Assembly (NCBI GenBank): GCA_900314715.1
Contig: OMWI01000006.1
Coordinates: forward strand, 1 to 64,000
Length of the DNA: 64,000 bases
Direction: 5' to 3'
From: an uncultured Prevotellaceae bacterium
GTDB lineage: Bacteria > Bacteroidota > Bacteroidia > Bacteroidales > Bacteroidaceae
Part shown: piece by piece, positions 3,836 through 14,333 of the stretch
How positions within the stretch are numbered: position 1 is the stretch's first letter
Layout of the letters: each line of letters starts with the position of its first letter
Notes under the pieces: model-generated
Told to the model about the DNA's origin: nothing
The model's database searches: none
Seen by the model: only the letters and a program-made list of their open reading frames with translations
Position numbers and translations under genes: made by a program

Positions 3836-5146
3836 ATGGAATCATTCATCATTGAAGGCGGTCATGCGCTTCAGGGAGAAATAACGCCACAAGGTGCCAA
3901 GAACGAGGCTTTGCAGGTGATTTGCGCTTCATTGCTTACGCAAGATGAAGTGCGTATCTGCAATATCCCCGACATTCTCGATGTCAACAACTTGATACAA
4001 TTGTTATGTGACATTGGCGTAAAGGTGACAAAACATTCACGAAACGAATATTCCTTCAAGGCCGAACAGCTTAACTTGGAATATTTGAAAAGTGATGAGT
4101 TCGTGAGGAAATGTGCTTCTTTGCGTGGAAGTGTATTGATGATAGGACCGTTGTTGGGTCGTTTCGGCAATGCCACTATTGCAGAACCTGGTGGTGATAA
4201 GATTGGTCGCCGACGTTTAGATACCCATTTCTTGGGTTTCAAAAACCTTGGAGCCAACTTTGTTTATGACGAAAAGCGCAACGTATATAACATTCAGGCC
4301 AAGAAACTCAAGGCTACATATATGTTGTTGGATGAGGCTTCGGTTACGGGAACGGCTAACGTCATCATGGCTGCCGTACTTGCGGAAGGTACAACTACTA
4401 TCTACAATGCCGCTTGCGAACCATACATCCAGCAATTGTGTCATTTGCTCAACGCCATGGGAGCCAATATCAGCGGTATCGCGTCGAACTTGATTACTAT
4501 CGTAGGAGTAAAGGAATTGCATGGAGCCACTCATCAGATATTGCCCGATATGATTGAGGTGGGTTCGTTTATCGGAATGGCTGCTATTGTGGGAAATGGC
4601 ATTCGCATCAAAAATGTTGCTTTGCGCCATTTGGGTATTATCCCGGATGTCTATAAGCGATTGGGCGTGAAGATAAAGGTTGAAGGCGATGACTTGGTGA
4701 TTCCACAACAGAAACATTACGTAATAGAATCATTTATAGACGGTACCATCATGACCTTTGCTGATGCTCCTTGGCCAGGATTGACACCTGATTTACTTTC
4801 CGTATTGTTGGTAGTTGCTACGCAAGCGAAAGGTAGTGTGCTTATTCATCAGAAAATGTTTGAGAGTCGCTTGTTCTTTGTAGACAAGCTCATCGATATG
4901 GGAGCGCAAATCATTCTATGTGACCCACACCGAGCCGTGGTTATCGGACATGATCGCAACTTACAATTGCGTGCTGGGCGAATGACAAGTCCTGATATTC
5001 GTGCCGGTATTGCCTTACTCATAGCTGCATTAAGCGCAAAAGGTACGAGTCGCATTGCCAATATCGCGCAAATTGACCGAGGTTATGAAGACATCGAGAA
5101 ACGTCTCAATGCTTTGGGTGCCCACATTACTCGTGTCGATGATTAA
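3836..5146 (+). CDS. murA: UDP-N-acetylglucosamine 1-carboxyvinyltransferase (MurA), Asp active-site variant
   Basis: Adds enolpyruvate from PEP to UDP-GlcNAc, the first committed step of peptidoglycan synthesis. At 436 residues it is slightly longer than E. coli MurA but has the same two-domain layout: KNEALQ near the N-terminus, RFGNATIAEPGG then the active-site loop, and DIRAGIALLIAAL near the C-terminus. Where E. coli has the catalytic Cys of GGCTIG, this protein reads GGDKIG, an Asp at residue 121 (codon 4196-4198). Asp at this place is known from naturally fosfomycin-insensitive MurA enzymes, so insensitivity is predicted. It lies between the DUF4290 gene and rimM. Confidence 0.96.
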   Translation: MESFIIEGGHALQGEITPQGAKNEALQVICASLLTQDEVRICNIPDILDVNNLIQLLCDIGVKVTKHSRNEYSFKAEQLNLEYLKSDEFVRKCASLRGSVLMIGPLLGRFGNATIAEPGGDKIGRRRLDTHFLGFKNLGANFVYDEKRNVYNIQAKKLKATYMLLDEASVTGTANVIMAAVLAEGTTTIYNAACEPYIQQLCHLLNAMGANISGIASNLITIVGVKELHGATHQILPDMIEVGSFIGMAAIVGNGIRIKNVALRHLGIIPDVYKRLGVKIKVEGDDLVIPQQKHYVIESFIDGTIMTFADAPWPGLTPDLLSVLLVVATQAKGSVLIHQKMFESRLFFVDKLIDMGAQIILCDPHRAVVIGHDRNLQLRAGRMTSPDIRAGIALLIAALSAKGTSRIANIAQIDRGYEDIEKRLNALGAHITRVDD

Positions 5147-5182
5147 CGGAATCATGCATGCATTTTTACTAATCATCCAATC

Positions 5183-5704
5183 ATGATTAAACAAGAAGAG
5201 GTTTTTAAAATCGGACGTATTGGAAAACCGCATGGAATCAATGGAGAAGTACATTTCCTCTTTGATGATGACGTGTTTGATAGAGTGGAATCTGAGTATC
5301 TGATATTGGATATTGACGGCATTCTCGTTCCTTTCTTCATGGAAGAATATCGTTTTCGTGGAGAAAGTAGTGCATTGGTGAAATTCTGTGATATAGATAC
5401 GCAAGAGAAAGCGCGTGAACTGACCAATTGTGACGTGTACTTCCCATATAGTCTTACGGATGAAGACCCAGAGAACATGAGGTGGACACAAATCATCGGT
5501 TTCAATTTAATGGATGCTAATAACCAACAACTCGTAGGTTCGATAACGGGTGTTGACGACAATACGATGAACATCTTGTTTGAGGTGGAGAGGTCAGACG
5601 GAAATCGTATTCTTGTACCTGCCAACGAAGAACTCATTCAAGAAGTCAATACCGACAATAGGTTTATCAGCGTTCAATTACCAGAAGGTTTATTGGATTT
5701 ATAA
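5183..5704 (+). CDS. rimM: ribosome maturation factor RimM
   Basis: A 173-residue 16S rRNA processing factor that acts in maturation of the 30S head, where it binds ribosomal protein S19. The N-terminal RimM barrel starts with FKIGRIGKPHGINGEVHF; the C-terminal PRC-barrel part contains MNILFEVERSDGNRILVPA and ends in EGLLDL, as is usual. In many bacteria rimM sits with trmD and rpsP; here it lies between murA and dxr, 11 nt before dxr. Confidence 0.94.
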   Translation: MIKQEEVFKIGRIGKPHGINGEVHFLFDDDVFDRVESEYLILDIDGILVPFFMEEYRFRGESSALVKFCDIDTQEKARELTNCDVYFPYSLTDEDPENMRWTQIIGFNLMDANNQQLVGSITGVDDNTMNILFEVERSDGNRILVPANEELIQEVNTDNRFISVQLPEGLLDL

Positions 5705-6997: not shown

Positions 6998-8374
6998 ATG
7001 GAAATATTTCTGATCAGACTGCTCCAGTTCATGTTAGCAATCTCTTTGTTGGTTTTACTCCATGAAGGGGGGCACTTCTTTTTTTCAAAACTTTTTGGTG
7101 TACGTGTAGAGAAATTCTATTTGTTTTTCGACCCGTGGTTTCATTTGTTTGAATTCAAACCCAAGAAAAGTGAAACGACGTATGGTATAGGATGGCTACC
7201 GCTGGGTGGCTATTGTAAGATAGCGGGTATGATAGACGAAAGTATGGATACCGAGCAGATGAAGCAACCCGAACAGCCTTGGGAATTTAGATCAAAACCC
7301 GCATGGCAACGGTTGTTTATCATGATAGGTGGCGTACTTGTTAATTTCCTCTTGGCTTTGTTTATCTATTCAATGGTTCTTTATTATTGGGGCGATTCCT
7401 ATGTTGCCGTGAAGGACATGAAAATGGGTATGAAATTCAACAAGGAAGCCAAAGAATATGGATTCAAGGACCATGATATTCTCATTGGTACGGAGAATGG
7501 TGAGTTCAAGGATTTCTCTGCCGACTTGTTCCGTGAGATTTCCATTGCCAAACGAGTGGACATCATTCGCGATGGTAAACCAATGTCTATTTCCTTGCCA
7601 GGCGACATTAATTTGTTGGGAATGCTGAAGGCAACGCCTAATTTCGTGCGCCCATTCGTTCCTGCTGAGATAGATACCATTATGCCCAATACGCCTGCTT
7701 CGAAGATTAATATCAAAAAAGGCGACCAAATCTTGGCTGTCAATGGTGTTGCTATTGATTCTTGGAATGAATTTACGGATGAATTAGGACGCTTAGCCGA
7801 CATGATGACGATTGCCAGGTCACCAAAAGATAGTTTGCAATTGCGCACAGCATCTTTTGTCATTAGCCATAAGGCAACGAAAACTGTTGATACAACCACC
7901 GTGGTATTATCGCCCGATCTCAAATTGGGCGTTGGAATGTCTTCCATCTATTCATATTACGAGCCCACGACGATTACTTACGGATTCTTAGAGAGTTTTC
8001 CCGCAGGCATAAAATATGGTTGGAACGTTTTGGCTGGTTATGTGGGCGACTTGAAATACGTATTTACGAGCGATGGTGCAAAGTCTTTAGGTGGTTTCGG
8101 TGCCATCGGCAGTCTTTTCCCACCTGTTTGGGATTGGCACATGTTCTGGTTGATGACCGCCTTCTTGAGTATCATCCTTGCCTTTATGAATATTTTACCT
8201 ATTCCTGCACTCGACGGAGGACACGTGTTGTTCCTTCTCTATGAGATAGTTACAGGACGCAAACCCAGCGAAAAGTTCATGATTGGTGCAGAGTATGTAG
8301 GAATATCTATCCTTATTTTGCTGATGATTGTGGCAAATCTTAACGACATCTTGCGTTGGTTGGGATATATGTAA
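6998..8374 (+). CDS. rseP: RIP metalloprotease RseP (site-2 protease family)
   Basis: A 458-residue inner-membrane zinc protease that cuts transmembrane segments, classically of anti-sigma factors. The first helix carries the HEGGH zinc motif (about residues 22-26); a PDZ domain with DQILAVNGVAIDSW lies in the middle; the third ligand motif NILPIPALDGGH is near residue 405. The genome segment also encodes a membrane-tethered sigma factor 4 kb away, a conceivable though unproven type of substrate. dxr-rseP adjacency is widespread. Confidence 0.95.
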   Translation: MEIFLIRLLQFMLAISLLVLLHEGGHFFFSKLFGVRVEKFYLFFDPWFHLFEFKPKKSETTYGIGWLPLGGYCKIAGMIDESMDTEQMKQPEQPWEFRSKPAWQRLFIMIGGVLVNFLLALFIYSMVLYYWGDSYVAVKDMKMGMKFNKEAKEYGFKDHDILIGTENGEFKDFSADLFREISIAKRVDIIRDGKPMSISLPGDINLLGMLKATPNFVRPFVPAEIDTIMPNTPASKINIKKGDQILAVNGVAIDSWNEFTDELGRLADMMTIARSPKDSLQLRTASFVISHKATKTVDTTTVVLSPDLKLGVGMSSIYSYYEPTTITYGFLESFPAGIKYGWNVLAGYVGDLKYVFTSDGAKSLGGFGAIGSLFPPVWDWHMFWLMTAFLSIILAFMNILPIPALDGGHVLFLLYEIVTGRKPSEKFMIGAEYVGISILILLMIVANLNDILRWLGYM

Positions 8375-8998: not shown

Positions 8999-9121
8999 AC
9001 TATATTATTACTTGATTTTGCGTCAATTTAGGTGGTTATTTCTCATAATCTGATGGAACTTGAGTAATAGAATTTATTGAAGATTTTTCGCTGATTTTTG
9101 TTGATTGAAGAAATGTTTTAT

Positions 9122-9129
9122 TATCTTTG
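9122..9129 (+). promoter_or_regulatory. -7 box for the broken propeller regulator
   Basis: TATCTTTG. It lies inside the longest open frame starting at 9098, which shows that the true start must be downstream (TTG 9152 or ATG 9194). Confidence 0.6.
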
Positions 9130-9151
9130 CAAAATAAACCATAACTCGAAT

Positions 9152-10936
9152 TTGACGAAAGAAACCACGCTTTTAAGAAATGCTTTCATACTGATGATGG
9201 CATTCGTATACTCGCTTGGCGGCAAGTCGCAAGGACAGTTTGTTGAGCGCTTCAACGTGTTGTATCTTGACTTGATGCATGGGCTTCCCAGTAATTTTGT
9301 CGATGACATCAAAGCGGATTCGGATGGCTTTGTGTGGATTGCCACGTATGGAGGAGGACTTGTCAGGTATGATGGGTATTCCATTCTTAACTTTGGCGTG
9401 GGTAGTAGTTCGAGGAGCAAGCTCAAAAGCAATTCTTGTAGGAACTTGTGTGAGGATTCCTTTCATCGTTTGTGGATTTCGTTTGACGAATATACCGAAG
9501 TGCTCGACTTGAAGATGCTACGTCCCGTGATTCCCCATGACAAGCGAAAAAGATTGGAGGGCATATTGAAAGAGCGTTCCCTGCATGTCTGTTGCGACGC
9601 GAAAGGCAAGATATGGATTGCCACCATGCAGAACATCTATTGCGTGAGTTTCCTTCCCGATGGCGACATTGATCAGATATTGCGTTATCCTTATCGCGTG
9701 AACACCCCCGACGTGTTTATCAACGACCTTGACAGAAACGGGAGCGTGTGGGTAGCCTTCGGCGGAACGTTGAGGCGATTGTCGGTGAACAACGAACAAA
9801 TCGTGAACTCCGCTATTTCATCCGCCTTGCCAACGTTGCCCGTCGCCTTTATCTCCGACGTGGTTAAGTATCGTGATAAGTATTGGATAGCCACCAACAA
9901 CGGTCTCTATGCCTACGACACTTACACGAATGAGCTAACGACGTACAGGCACGACTATTCGCCCCTGTCGTTGTCGCACGACCATGTTTCAAGTCTTGCC
10001 GTTACGCCCGACAATCAACTCATCATCGGTACGTTGGGAGGAATAGACGTGCCGAACATGGAAATGAATCGCTTTGAGCATATCGACGTGGGAAATGACA
10101 TGACGCTTTCAAACAACTTTGTGAACTGTTTGAGCTACATCTACGGACAGCTATGGGTGGGAACGGAAGGAGGAGGCGTGATACACTTCGTGCCCCGACA
10201 GTTGCAAATACAAAACTACGTTCATACGAACGAACCGACTTCATTGTCGCCATTTGCCGTGAATGCCATGTATATGCAAGACAACGGTACGTTGTGGGTG
10301 GGCACCGTGGAAGGAGGATTGAACAGGAAGATACAAGGCGAGACTGGATTCACACATTATACCACGCACAATACACGCCTATCTCACAATAGCGTGTCTG
10401 CCATTGCTGCCGACAACCGACAACGACTATGGGTAGGAACGTGGGCAGGAGGAATCAACGTGTGTTCGTTGTCGTCGCCATCCGATATCCAACCGCTACC
10501 GATAGACGCTTCCTATCAACCATTGCTCAACTTCATCGGCGCGTTGCAATATGATGCCATTAACGACGGAATATGGATAAGAAGCAATGACGGCATTTAT
10601 TTCTACGACATCAAGACGGGGAAGATAAGAGACCCCTTCGTTGGCAATCGTAATTTCAGAGGATGTATCGGGAGCATCATCCTACCCGAAGGCAAATTGT
10701 GGATGGGATGTTTGGAAGGAGCGGTAGTGGTGAATTTGAAGAAGCGAACTACGGAAGGATTTGCCTATAAGCATTTGAAGTATCAATTAGACGAGCCAAA
10801 GAGCGGAATCATCGATAAAATCGCCTGCTATTGCAACGAGAGGCAGACTGGGAGAGCAATCCTCGTCGTGCAACTATTGTCTTTGCTGGTTTCACGGCTG
10901 ACGGAAAGACTACCTACTGGGGTAAGAAATAAATGA
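9152..10936 (+). pseudogene. hybrid two-component system regulator, truncated after the propeller domain
   Basis: About 594 residues of a periplasmic sensor related to Bacteroidales hybrid two-component regulators that detect glycans. A hydrophobic N-terminal signal (NAFILMMAFVYSLGG) is followed by about eight Reg_prop blades, for example FVWIATYGGGLVRYDG, LWVGTEGGGVIHF, LWVGTVEGGLNR and LWVGTWAGGINV. Full-length members run on through a second propeller half, a Y_Y_Y domain, a membrane helix, kinase, receiver and AraC domains, about 1,300 residues in all. Here homology stops near 10,830 and about 30 unrelated residues follow. With no kinase or DNA-binding part it cannot signal alone. Start TTG 9152 is inferred from the promoter; ATG 9194 is possible. 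Confidence 0.75.
10836..10932 (+). pseudogene. 3' tail of an unidentified gene, fused to the regulator remnant
   Basis: In a frame different from the regulator, about 30 codons read like a genuine protein end: READWESNPRRATIVF then AGFTADGKTTYWGKK and a stop at 10930-10932. The frame is closed upstream by a TAA just before 10,825. The simplest reading is that a deletion joined the 5' part of the regulator to the 3' end of another gene. The family was not recognised. Confidence 0.45.
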
Positions 10937-11016: not shown

Positions 11017-11868
11017 ATGAAAAGATTATTGTTGGTAGCCATACTGATGGTATATGCCGTGGTAGTGAGTGCACAAGATTTGTATGTGGGCACATATAAT
11101 ATAAGGTATAAGAACAAGGATGATTCCATCAAAGGTAACGTGTGGACGAAGCGTTGCCAAGTGATGTGTGACCAAATCAACTTTGAGTCGCCCGATGTTC
11201 TCGGTATGCAAGAGGTGTTGGTAGGACAATTACATGATTTCCAACGACTTCTCGACAACTATTCCTATATTGGGGTGGGGCGCGATGATGGTAAGGAAGC
11301 AGGTGAGTATGCTGCCATTTTCTATAAGAATGACCGTGTGAAGCTATTGGATAGTGGCAATTTCTGGCTCAATGAAACACCCGATGTTCCTAAGTTGGGA
11401 TGGGATGCGGCTTGCATTCGCATTTGTACGTGGGGAAAGTTCAAGGACTTGCGCACAAAGAAAAAGTTTTATTTTTTCAATCTACACATGGATCATGTGG
11501 GTGTAGTGGCAAGGAGAGAAGCTGCCAAGTTGGTGGTGTCGCGCATCAAGGAGATGGCACAAGATGCTCCTGTAGTGCTGACGGGCGACTTCAACGTGGA
11601 TCAAACAGATGAAATCTATGGTATTTTCACCCATTCTGGCATCTTGAAAGATTCATACGAAAAAGCTCGCATTCGTTTTGCGGAGAATGGTACATTCAAT
11701 AGTTTTAAGGTGGAAACGAAGACAGATAGTAGGATTGACCACGTCTTCGTTTCTCCTTCATTCAAGGTTGAGGCATACGGCTTGCGCACGGATAGTTATT
11801 GGGCAAAAGGAAGACGTAATCTATCCGATCATTATCCCGTATTCGTTAAATTAAGAGGTGGAAAGTGA
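11017..11868 (+). CDS. secreted endonuclease/exonuclease/phosphatase family protein
   Basis: A 283-residue protein with a cleavable signal peptide (MKRLLLVAILMVYAVVVSAQ), so periplasmic or secreted. The DNase I-like fold motifs appear in order: TYNIR, DVLGMQEVL (metal-binding Glu), NLHMDHVG (catalytic His), LTGDFNVDQ, DHVFVS and the terminal SDHYPV. Members hydrolyse phosphodiesters in nucleic acids, phosphoinositides or other substrates; the exact substrate cannot be read here. Such secreted forms are common in Bacteroidales. Complete and of usual length. Confidence 0.88.
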   Translation: MKRLLLVAILMVYAVVVSAQDLYVGTYNIRYKNKDDSIKGNVWTKRCQVMCDQINFESPDVLGMQEVLVGQLHDFQRLLDNYSYIGVGRDDGKEAGEYAAIFYKNDRVKLLDSGNFWLNETPDVPKLGWDAACIRICTWGKFKDLRTKKKFYFFNLHMDHVGVVARREAAKLVVSRIKEMAQDAPVVLTGDFNVDQTDEIYGIFTHSGILKDSYEKARIRFAENGTFNSFKVETKTDSRIDHVFVSPSFKVEAYGLRTDSYWAKGRRNLSDHYPVFVKLRGGK

Positions 11869-11976
11869 GAGGTGAGTGGTGAGAGGTGAGTGGTGAGAGA
11901 TTACCTAAGGCTATAAATGGTCAATGGTCAATAACAAAAGCATATCTCTCACCTCTCACCCCTCACCTCTCTCCCC
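11868..11976. repeat. GTGAGAGGTGAG iterated inverted repeat
   Basis: GTGAGAGGTGAGTGGTGAG units on the left and TCTCACCTCTCACCCCTCAC units on the right form inverted arms around about 50 bp. A short related piece (CCTCTCACCTCTCACCTC) lies at 27,737-27,755 between the two MacB permease genes. Confidence 0.65.
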
Positions 11977-11994
11977 TAAAAAATGTTAACATCA

Positions 11995-12034
11995 TGCAGT
12001 CTTTTTCGATGTTTTAGGACTATAGAAATAGAGA
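11995..12034 (+). promoter_or_regulatory. 40-bp conserved element, copy 1 (candidate ECF promoter)
   Basis: TGCAGTCTTTT, an 11-nt spacer, GGACTATA, one base, then AAATAGAGA. The same blocks with identical spacing recur before the next gene. The 22-nt distance between the starts of the two blocks fits the -35/-10 geometry of an extracytoplasmic-function sigma promoter. The GGACTATA block ends only 11 nt before the first ATG, so the transcript would be almost leaderless, or translation starts at the ATG at 12048. Confidence 0.6.
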
Positions 12035-12035
12035 C

Positions 12036-13727
12036 ATGATGCTCACGATGAACTTAAGACTATTGATAGAACGTTGCAGACAAGGAGATGAGGAGGCTCT
12101 TGGCGAACTGTATGAGGCATATTCTCAGCAGATGAGGGGAATATGCCGACGATATTTCAGCGACGAACAAACAATAGACGATGTCCTTCATGATGCTTTC
12201 GTGATTATCTTTACTTCGTTAGATAGGTTGCGCGACATGCGACGTGCAGAACCGTGGATGAATGCTATTGTGCGAAACGTGGCTTCTAAATACAAAGACC
12301 ACTTGCGTGCTCATCCTACCATTTCCATTGAAGAAGCTAACGAGACGGAATTACCAATCGTCGAAGCGGAAGCTAACGATGGTGTTGGCATTCCACATGA
12401 TGACCTGATGCAATTGCTCAACATGTTGCCCGAAGGATATAGTAAGGTGTTGCGCCTTTCCATATTCGAGGGTTTGTCGCATAAGGAGATTGCCGCATTG
12501 ATGAACATTGAGCCACATTCATCTTCATCGCAATTGTCGCGAGCCAAAAGAATGTTGCGCAAGTTGGCTTTGCAATATTGGGCAATACTCCTGCTTCTGT
12601 TGGTTCCCATATTCTGGTTGGTGAACAAGAACAAAGAACATGGGGAAACAAGTCAACCTATCGTGAAAAGGCAACAAGATATAGTTCAAGAAGAAGAGAA
12701 AACTACTCCAACAAAGGTAAGGAAAACCACCTTACCGCACATTCCGATTGCCAAAAATGTCATTCGTCCGCTCATCATATCGACTACGGACACGATTACT
12801 CCCATAGACTCGCTTGCTCCTGTCGTGGCAAAAGAGGAGAAAGATACAACGGTGAATGTTCCAGACGAAAAACCTGTTCATCAACCAATCTATGACGTGG
12901 AAAACATATTAGCAGATAAATGGGAAAACAACAAGGAAGAACAACGAAAATGGTCGTTAGACTTGACTTATTCAGGTAATTACGATACGCAAAATAGGTA
13001 TAATCAATTGTATGCTTACCAATTGCCGCCGAGAAATCAACAAGATATGCCAGGGTCAGGTGCTCCCACTTATATCGAACCATCTTCCATCGACAATTGG
13101 AACGATTATTTGTTATACTTAGAGCGTCATCCTGATGCAGTCAATCAAAAAGTACGCGAAGTAATCAGCACCATTGCCCTCAACAATGCCAATCAGCCTG
13201 CCAATGAAAAGATTTTGCGTACGAGTCATCATTATATGCCTTTGACGTGGTCATTGTCATTGACTTACAAGTTGAATCATCATTGGGGCTTTGAGACGGG
13301 ATTGAAATATAGCAAGTTGACATCTGAATTCGAGAAGGGAGCGGATGGTAATACCATAAACGAACGACAGGTTATCCATTATCTCGGAATACCTTTGAAA
13401 GGTGTTTATCATTTGTATGACAACAACAGGTGGAGTATTTACGGTGCTGTGGGATTCACCATAGAGAAACCTGTCTATTCGCCTTTATATACTGATTATT
13501 ACGTGAGGGGTAGGTTAGAGTTGAACGACAAGACTACTATCCATGCTCCGTGGCAATTGTCAACGAGTTTCGGAGTGGGATTACAATATCATATCACACC
13601 GTATATCGGTTTCTTTGCAGAGCCAAGTATGCAATATTACATTCCGATGAAGACAAACATAGAGACCTATCATACGGAGCATCCGTTCTCGTTCACCTTA
13701 CCGTTAGGTATAAGATTTACGTGGTAG
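12036..13727 (+). CDS. ECF sigma factor fused to a transmembrane anchor and outer-membrane beta-barrel domain
   Basis: One 563-residue frame contains three parts. Residues about 20-90 are sigma region 2 (ELYEAYSQQMRGICRRYF, DDVLHDAFVIIF); about 123-176 are region 4 with the helix-turn-helix EGLSHKEIAALMNIEPHSS. A basic stretch KRMLRK then leads into a single membrane helix, YWAILLLLLVPIFWLV (181-196), oriented N-in. After a roughly 110-residue Pro/Thr-rich linker, residues about 310-563 have alternating beta-strands and end in a terminal aromatic (GIRFTW), as outer-membrane barrels do. Normally sigma factor and membrane-barrel partner are separate proteins. Inferred role: a tethered sigma that senses envelope state and is freed by proteolysis. 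It is paired with the lipoprotein gene downstream. Confidence 0.85.
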   Translation: MMLTMNLRLLIERCRQGDEEALGELYEAYSQQMRGICRRYFSDEQTIDDVLHDAFVIIFTSLDRLRDMRRAEPWMNAIVRNVASKYKDHLRAHPTISIEEANETELPIVEAEANDGVGIPHDDLMQLLNMLPEGYSKVLRLSIFEGLSHKEIAALMNIEPHSSSSQLSRAKRMLRKLALQYWAILLLLLVPIFWLVNKNKEHGETSQPIVKRQQDIVQEEEKTTPTKVRKTTLPHIPIAKNVIRPLIISTTDTITPIDSLAPVVAKEEKDTTVNVPDEKPVHQPIYDVENILADKWENNKEEQRKWSLDLTYSGNYDTQNRYNQLYAYQLPPRNQQDMPGSGAPTYIEPSSIDNWNDYLLYLERHPDAVNQKVREVISTIALNNANQPANEKILRTSHHYMPLTWSLSLTYKLNHHWGFETGLKYSKLTSEFEKGADGNTINERQVIHYLGIPLKGVYHLYDNNRWSIYGAVGFTIEKPVYSPLYTDYYVRGRLELNDKTTIHAPWQLSTSFGVGLQYHITPYIGFFAEPSMQYYIPMKTNIETYHTEHPFSFTLPLGIRFTW

Positions 13728-13730
13728 TCG

Positions 13731-13770
13731 TGCAGTCTTTTGGGAGTTTGACGGACTATATAAATAGAGA
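13731..13770 (+). promoter_or_regulatory. 40-bp conserved element, copy 2 (candidate ECF promoter)
   Basis: TGCAGTCTTTT, 11-nt spacer, GGACTATA, one base, AAATAGAGA: the same blocks and spacing as at 11,995. It begins 3 nt after the stop of the sigma-barrel gene and ends 11 nt before the lipoprotein ATG. Confidence 0.6.
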
Positions 13771-13781
13771 AGGTAATTAAA

Positions 13782-14333
13782 ATGCCGAAGAAAATGAAAC
13801 ATAACAAATCTTTCGCTTGGATGATGGCGATAGCCATAGCCAGCACAATGATGACTGCTTGTAGTCTTGACGGTTACGAACCAGAGAAACCCTTTACTAT
13901 TTGTCCTCCACCTAAAACGATGCTCTTTGCGTGTAGTTTTACGCAGCCAGAAATACATGCTGGTGTGGATGTGCTTTTCAATGAAGACGATATCGAATGG
14001 TTTAATGTGACAACGCGTGAAATCAAGTTCCGTGAAATGGAAGAACCGCTCTATAAGCGTTTGGAACCATTACACGAAATCTATTTTTATTTAGGTACCA
14101 ATGAACTGTTTGTGGTAAGTAGTTTCGTCACCGATTGGGATAGTAGGGTGTTCACAAACCTCGTCTTGCATTATGATGTGATTTCTGACCCCAATCAGGG
14201 CCACTATTATTTACAAGACAGTTATCCAGAGTTCATCAACACAGAAGAAGTGCAAGCAAACCGTGAGAAGAATGCCAAACAATGGGAAGTGTTTATCCGT
14301 TATTTGGATGAAAAGGGTAAATTGAGGAGGTAA
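13782..14333 (+). CDS. putative lipoprotein, partner of the sigma-barrel protein
   Basis: A 183-residue protein with a lipoprotein signal: basic start MPKKMKHNK, hydrophobic core, then MMTAC with Cys at residue 27 as the acylation site. A start at the second Met (13794) is equally plausible. The mature part is acidic with regularly spaced aromatic residues, suggesting a beta-rich fold; no family was recognised. It has its own copy of the 40-bp element and a terminator downstream, so it is probably expressed both with and independently of the sigma-barrel gene. An envelope ligand or co-sensor role is a guess from context. Confidence 0.75.
   Translation: MPKKMKHNKSFAWMMAIAIASTMMTACSLDGYEPEKPFTICPPPKTMLFACSFTQPEIHAGVDVLFNEDDIEWFNVTTREIKFREMEEPLYKRLEPLHEIYFYLGTNELFVVSSFVTDWDSRVFTNLVLHYDVISDPNQGHYYLQDSYPEFINTEEVQANREKNAKQWEVFIRYLDEKGKLRR

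Follow-up and report, generated by a model that had tools for sequence, protein, structure and literature searches.

The 64,000-nt stretch of contig OMWI01000006.1 analysed here (the window; forward strand, assembly GCA_900314715.1, from an uncultured Prevotellaceae bacterium) encodes a real, well-conserved, one-piece trans-envelope sigma factor of a kind noted once before, in Bacteroides. An extracytoplasmic function (ECF) sigma factor, a transmembrane (TM) helix, a linker and a β-barrel are joined in one intact frame of 563 codons (12036..13727, plus strand). The first-pass annotation had read this stretch as a single uninterrupted polypeptide, and the wider comparison bears it out: sigma factor and barrel share a single open frame in 79 of the best 80 related loci, the exception being L158, where the frame is broken between them. 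Two features that the annotation did not anticipate emerged as well, namely the apparent loss of an anti-sigma domain and a conserved promoter-like element in front of the fused gene.

Architecture of the fused protein and its known counterparts

The N-terminal ECF sigma domain (residues 1-176, 12036..12563) contains both sigma region 2 and sigma region 4. It is followed by the TM helix (about residues 177-198, 12564..12629), a presumed periplasmic linker (residues 199-301, 12630..12938) and an OmpA-like β-barrel (residues 303-563, 12942..13724) whose last residue is Trp, all on the plus strand. Structure prediction, which had been proposed as a check on this layout, modelled the sigma domain, the helix, a linker of low predicted local distance difference test score (pLDDT) and the barrel. 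The single TM helix, the long disordered tether and a C-terminal barrel of the Das/Dma form are thus all present, whereas a FecR-like cell-surface-signalling domain had no Pfam match in the protein at E <= 1. In the structure model, helix 163-200 is continuous, with the last helix of sigma region 4, which we take to be the one that reads the -35 element, passing into the membrane helix without a break; sigma-4 and the membrane helix are separated by no more than a few residues. The spacing across this joint is nearly fixed, with 18 residues from Leu174 to Pro191 in 67 of the 90 aligned fused proteins, 17 in 21, and 16 and 19 in one each. Pro191 itself is kept in 85 of the 90.

The barrel model carries a conserved helical insert between its second and third strands (13011-13214, residues 326-393). 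Residues W355, D357 and Y358 of this insert are invariant in a set of 57 rows, and the insert is missing from the fused proteins of loci L041, L042 and L043. It might act as a plug or in sensing.

The kind of protein is already known, because the architecture of Dma3 is in print (PMC13088901). According to the available part of that description, Dma proteins consist of an anti-sigma domain, a TM helix, a disordered tether and a barrel, and genes for ECF21 sigma factors lie adjacent; in Dma3 of Bacteroides thetaiotaomicron (locus bt_2778-2779), by contrast, the chain opens with a sigma domain of its own, and this protein is described as barely characterised. The protein studied here has the same architecture, an N-terminal sigma domain on a Dma-like membrane-spanning protein, and on that architecture as described it likely belongs to the Dma3 family, the likeness being to the published description and not to a sequence.

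Two other groups of sigma factors provide partial parallels, as far as the available portions of the published accounts go. IutY of Pseudomonas putida, an ECF243 sigma/anti-sigma hybrid, likewise has a cytosolic sigma factor joined directly to a single TM helix and a periplasmic part in one polypeptide, and this chain is released by Prc and then RseP (PMC5411451). In IutY, however, a cell-surface-signalling anti-sigma domain makes up the periplasmic part; the chain contains no barrel, and the receptor in the outer membrane, IutA, is a protein of its own. The ECF48, ECF52 and ECF53 sigma factors of Actinobacteria (e.g., SCO4117) are fused to TM-bearing regulatory extensions, and their proteolytic release is expected; these extensions comprise a zinc-finger anti-sigma domain and one or two TM helices, and the available part of the source mentions no outer-membrane barrel (PMC8999054). 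The first-pass annotation had considered the architecture unusual. The fusion is real, but it is in print for Dma3, has hybrid kin in IutY and is widespread in the window's own family, as described below.

Family spread and two-gene relatives

Named genomes were scanned with an alignment of 15 fused proteins, and the best 80 of the 310 related stretches returned were analysed. The search for homologues of the same three-part architecture, which the annotation had suggested, yielded a conserved family. The titles of these 80 loci name Prevotella, Alloprevotella, Prevotellaceae, Bacteroidaceae or Bacteroidales, and many of them come from ruminants. Within the window's family, matches at E <= 1e-35 were found in 80 of 299 sampled genomes, representing 16 of 27 genera, although these include partial and broken matches. 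Across the phylum, 4 of 296 sampled genomes reached E <= 1e-28: the window's own, two from the same family and one from another family. At the DNA level, the match from the other family (G563) and one of the two same-family matches (G088) proved to be split pairs, and the second same-family match (G061) a broken frame. Hence no fused gene was seen outside the window's family at E <= 1e-28 in this 296-genome sample, a threshold that weaker ones could escape.

Median pairwise ratios of nonsynonymous to synonymous substitution rates (dN/dS), calculated with our own script from 749 non-independent pairs picked for moderate divergence, were 0.124 for the sigma domain, 0.14 for the helix and 0.14 for the barrel. 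The linker stands apart with a median of 0.298 (0.30 vs 0.12-0.14 elsewhere). These ratios indicate purifying selection on the sigma domain, the helix and the barrel.

Many of these genomes, and of related ones, carry the sigma and barrel halves as separate genes. The 25 split sigma genes examined encode ECF sigma factors of 179-219 aa; the 26 split barrel genes encode proteins of 346-488 aa in which an N-terminal W...P..LW..I-like segment is followed by one TM helix, a linker and a barrel like that of the fusion. Sigma and barrel genes overlap by 4 bases in 17 of the 25 pairs, and both halves of the fused protein are akin to them by sequence. These split pairs are the nearest relatives of the fusion, and we call them Das/Dma by their architecture, not by comparison with the B. 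thetaiotaomicron sequences. The published two-gene form, in the part of its description available, shares with the fused protein the ECF sigma factor, the single TM helix, the long disordered tether and the C-terminal barrel (PMC13088901). It differs in that sigma factor and regulator are separate adjacent genes and the regulator has an N-terminal anti-sigma domain; the fused protein is one frame and lacks that domain.

In a tree of sigma domains (64 rows, after four long outgroup rows had been dropped), the 32 fused rows (two of which come from broken frames) all fall in one clade with support of 100/100, with the split rows around it, the bootstrap being not fully settled. Quick trees agree, both for the sigma domain (26 fused among 60 rows, SH-like approximate likelihood ratio test, SH-aLRT, 99) and for the barrel (26 fused vs 26 split, SH-aLRT 99). 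Judged from these trees, the separate-gene state looks ancestral, in line with the earlier expectation that in Bacteroidetes the sigma factor and its regulator are normally neighbouring genes; in the simplest history, a two-gene ancestor would have undergone a single fusion, after which the fused gene spread and was duplicated, the three fused genes in genome G018 being an example. The annotation had also held that homologues in two genes would speak against the fusion. Such homologues exist, but they do not refute it because they make up a lineage of their own that has an additional anti-sigma domain.

That extra domain appears to have no counterpart in the fused form. In the 26 split barrel proteins, 40-67 residues precede the most hydrophobic stretch, and a profile built from the first 55 residues of these Dma-like proteins recovers, at 1e-3, all 26 training proteins and 3 of the 5 that were held out. 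The same profile, which misses 2 of the 5 held-out Dma proteins, matched none of 90 fused proteins (best E 2) and no gene adjoining the fused genes at 1e-3 (best neighbour E 0.039). The sequence comparisons thus indicate that the fusion lost the cytoplasmic anti-sigma domain of its two-gene ancestor. Nor was another Dma-type protein found in the window's genome at E <= 1e-3, apart from one marginal match to the Dma profile (E 7.3e-4; G000:C13:33699-33977), which covers the TM/linker region and lies in a 195-aa frame. The joining of the recognition helix to the membrane helix, as modelled, is a further difference from the description of Dma1 and Dma2 in the published part at hand. The searched literature, including the accessible part of PMC13088901, contained no report of the scale of this family, of the missing anti-sigma domain together with the recognition-membrane helix joint, or of the promoter element and small regulon described next.

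Promoter-like element, neighbouring genes and predicted targets

Two bipartite promoter-like elements were identified in the window, both on the plus strand. Element 1, TGCAGTCTTTT-N11-GGACTATAGAAATAGAGA (11995..12034), lies before the fused gene, and element 2, TGCAGTCTTTT-N11-GGACTATATAAATAGAGA (13731..13770), begins four bases past the stop codon of the fused gene and lies before a lipoprotein gene. Upstream of element 1 there is an A-tract (11978..11983, plus strand), a possible UP element, and by eye an A-rich stretch stands at a like distance in many of the upstream rows. The consensus layout before fused genes, also drawn by eye, consists of an A-rich stretch, about 13 bases, RTGCAGTCTTTT, mostly 11 bases, and GGACTATATARATAGAGA. 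With one pattern, the spacer between the boxes measures 11 bases in 103 matches, 10 in 13 and 12 in 1. Just upstream of the A-tract (11868-11977), GA-rich repeats (gagaggtgagtggtgagag...) are followed by a CT-rich, roughly complementary stretch (tctctcacctctcacccctcacctctctc), as judged by eye; this could be a possible inverted repeat beside the promoter.

Element counts, like those of neighbouring genes below, refer to related rows and are unweighted. Of 91 fused genes, 85 are preceded by the 10-base core of the first box with <= 1 mismatch, 79 of them by an exact copy; for 84 of the 85, the core lies 86-92 bases before one anchor codon. The combination TGCAGTCTTTT-N(9-15)-GNACT is found at only two places in the whole 4.05-Mb genome, 11995 and 13731, with 0 in the reversed control. 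TGCAGTCTTTT alone has six copies, with two in the reversed control; of the remaining copies, three are inside coding frames and one, on another contig, stands 47 bases upstream of a radical-SAM/SPASM gene. The second box, typed by eye, differs between clades: it is GGACTATA in most, CTC-type in L044/L045/L053/L054, and TATCATA in L165/L169. Where upstream and downstream sites were both scored, their types match (55 GGAC/GGAC and 1 TATCATA/TATCATA). This agreement would fit recognition by a co-varying sigma factor, although hardly any of the rows scored lie outside the main clade. In locus L058, a comparable though not identical element (TGCAAGTTTTT...GGATTTAGTAGATAGAGA) was seen upstream of a split sigma gene (4699-5277, minus strand), which suggests that some split-pair promoters share the same layout.

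Among 95 fused genes, the neighbouring genes cluster into a lipoprotein (53 loci), a radical-SAM/SPASM enzyme (52), a Gfo/Idh/MocA-type oxidoreductase (44) and a class I methyltransferase (6). The lipoprotein gene is directly downstream of the fused gene in 50 of its 53 loci. In the window, this conserved companion (13782..14333, plus strand) encodes a lipoprotein of unknown family, 183 aa long with lipobox Cys27; within its 53-member family, Cys27 is present in 53 of 53 and the lipobox pattern in 49 of 53. It had no Pfam match at E <= 0.1 and no clear fold match. At a distance of up to 110 bases, the first-box core (<= 1 mismatch) precedes 45 of the 53 lipoprotein genes, 39 of the 52 radical-SAM genes and 4 of the 6 methyltransferase genes, against a background of 3.8% per 125 nt. 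It precedes none of the 44 Gfo/Idh genes within that distance; these usually lie deeper in the operon. A looser bipartite pattern was found at 65 of the 92 sites upstream of fused genes and at 71 of the 94 downstream of them, and elsewhere in 1.07 Mb it occurs 25 times on the same strand, 3 times on the opposite strand and 4 times in the reversed control. In a recount, 13 of 26 further matches fell at +630 to +710, close to the start of the radical-SAM gene. The radical-SAM gene of the window's genome, on its separate contig, is 83% identical to the one downstream of the fused gene in L080, which argues that the first box and this gene have been kept together even though the gene stands apart from the fused gene here. 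The promoter-like element and its target set look new.

The module downstream of the fused genes in L080-L159 and other loci is itself conserved and comprises the lipoprotein, the radical SAM/SPASM enzyme and the Gfo/Idh/MocA oxidoreductase, with the methyltransferase present in some other loci. Elsewhere in the window (9098-10936), a 612-aa frame resembles, by eye and with no search, the propeller sensor of a hybrid two-component system, with no kinase part visible.

A proposed tethered sigma factor and alternative explanations

Taken together, these features point to a one-piece Dma3-like sigma factor that is probably held inactive at the membrane, freed by proteolysis and drives its own gene and a tiny envelope regulon. 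A two-gene sigma/anti-sigma operon of the Das/Dma kind would have been fused, with loss of the cytoplasmic anti-sigma domain. The barrel would sit in the outer membrane, the linker would cross the periplasm, and the single helix would hold the sigma domain at the inner membrane. Because the DNA-reading helix of sigma region 4 continues directly into the membrane helix, the attached sigma domain should be unable to bind a -35 element, and perhaps core RNA polymerase too. The linker may become exposed to a periplasmic protease upon an outer-membrane signal or defect, or when the barrel or the linker is lost; RseP would then cut within the membrane helix and free the sigma domain. By analogy, and as the first-pass annotation had suggested, proteolytic release is the most likely switch. 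The cutting steps are proposed on account of the IutY precedent, a review of ECF factors that proteolysis activates (PMC8999054) and the presence of an RseP gene in the window: the candidate site-2 protease for the release cut (6998..8374, plus strand; TIGR00054, 199 bits, cut-off 147.55) is encoded 3.7 kb upstream of the fused gene. The free sigma factor would transcribe from TGCAGTCTTTT-N11-GGACTATA promoters, the targets being its own gene, the adjacent lipoprotein gene and the radical-SAM gene on the other contig. Activation of its own gene would provide positive feedback and also renew the tethered form. More tentatively, we propose a complete chain from outer membrane to promoter in one polypeptide without any anti-sigma factor, in which inhibition would come solely from the anchored sigma-4 helix and two to four dedicated promoters (those of the gene itself, the orphan lipoprotein and a radical-SAM/Gfo-Idh or methyltransferase module) would be conserved across rumen Prevotella relatives.

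The data themselves show the architecture, its conservation and ancestry, the lack of the anti-sigma domain, and the element with its positions; the two-membrane location, the inhibition by tethering, the proteolytic switch and the link between sigma factor and element are parts that we infer. Several points weigh against this interpretation. Confidence in the fold of the joint is only moderate (block-wise pLDDT 53-83 across residues 161-200), and the proteins of L163, L165, L168 and L169 lack Pro191, a possible aid to intramembrane cutting. The element would be tied to this sigma factor by position and conservation, some second-box variants having been judged partly by eye; 6 of 91 fused genes have no first-box core, either box may be the -35 or the -10, and the first ATG of the fused gene would give a very short leader. 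The second box before the radical-SAM gene of the window's genome, ATACTTAAGAGATAGAGA, is a weaker match that fails the strict pattern, and the Gfo/Idh homologue of this genome lies on a third contig, at 68% identity, with no exact first box there.

CadC and ToxR are membrane-bound transcription factors, and the sigma factor might similarly act uncut, the barrel or linker shifting its position or oligomeric state so that it binds RNA polymerase and promoters near the membrane. This is unlikely but deserves some weight, as cleavage of the fused protein is so far a prediction and the whole chain is intact in nearly all of the best 80 loci. Against it, reading a -35 element while attached looks hard because, in the model, the recognition helix joins the membrane helix at a near-fixed spacing, and IutY, the closest sigma-TM hybrid that has been studied, depends on both Prc and RseP (PMC5411451). 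There is a smaller chance that the protein serves as its own anti-sigma factor in the ordinary way, the sigma domain being masked by part of region 94-118, between sigma-2 and sigma-4, or by a protein acting in trans, with tethering being secondary. The few residues between sigma-4 and the helix speak against such masking, and so do the lack of anti-sigma profile matches in fused proteins and their neighbours, albeit with a profile that overlooks some held-out Dma proteins, and the scarcity of other Dma-type proteins in the genome.

It is also improbable that the helix is a signal peptide or is constitutively removed, such that free sigma factor and free barrel are always made with little regulation. 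Co-expressing two products from one gene would be economical, but the joint, spacing included, is conserved to much the same degree as the domains, and no signal-peptidase motif was seen after the helix by eye, with no program run. Moreover, constant release would tend to run away because the predicted targets include the fused gene itself. Finally, an assembly chimera, a frameshift artefact or a decaying gene can be given almost no weight. Homologous frames are broken at L046 (4614-5279), L158 (1689-3383), L163 (3422-4914) and L164 (3519-5209), and single stops occur at three places among the family-sample matches, which count against the preferred reading of a conserved, tethered sigma factor as well. 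The fused frame is nevertheless no artefact, because it is intact in 79 of the best 80 loci and purifying selection acts on its sigma domain, helix and barrel (median dN/dS 0.12-0.14); the single-contig genomes G016 and G024 also carry the fused gene. The four breaks sit near the TM helix or in the linker and may represent decay, assembly error or a secondary split.

How Bacteroidota sense conditions at the outer membrane and relay them to their genes is poorly understood, and the searched literature, as far as its sources were available, gave no signal, switch or target for Dma3-like proteins. The fused form described here suggests a large family that has dispensed with the anti-sigma domain and acts on a very small, precisely predicted set of promoters. 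Because this set is so small and so precisely predicted, the mechanism is directly testable, and a one-gene sensor with a compact promoter could serve as a genetic tool for gut Bacteroidales.
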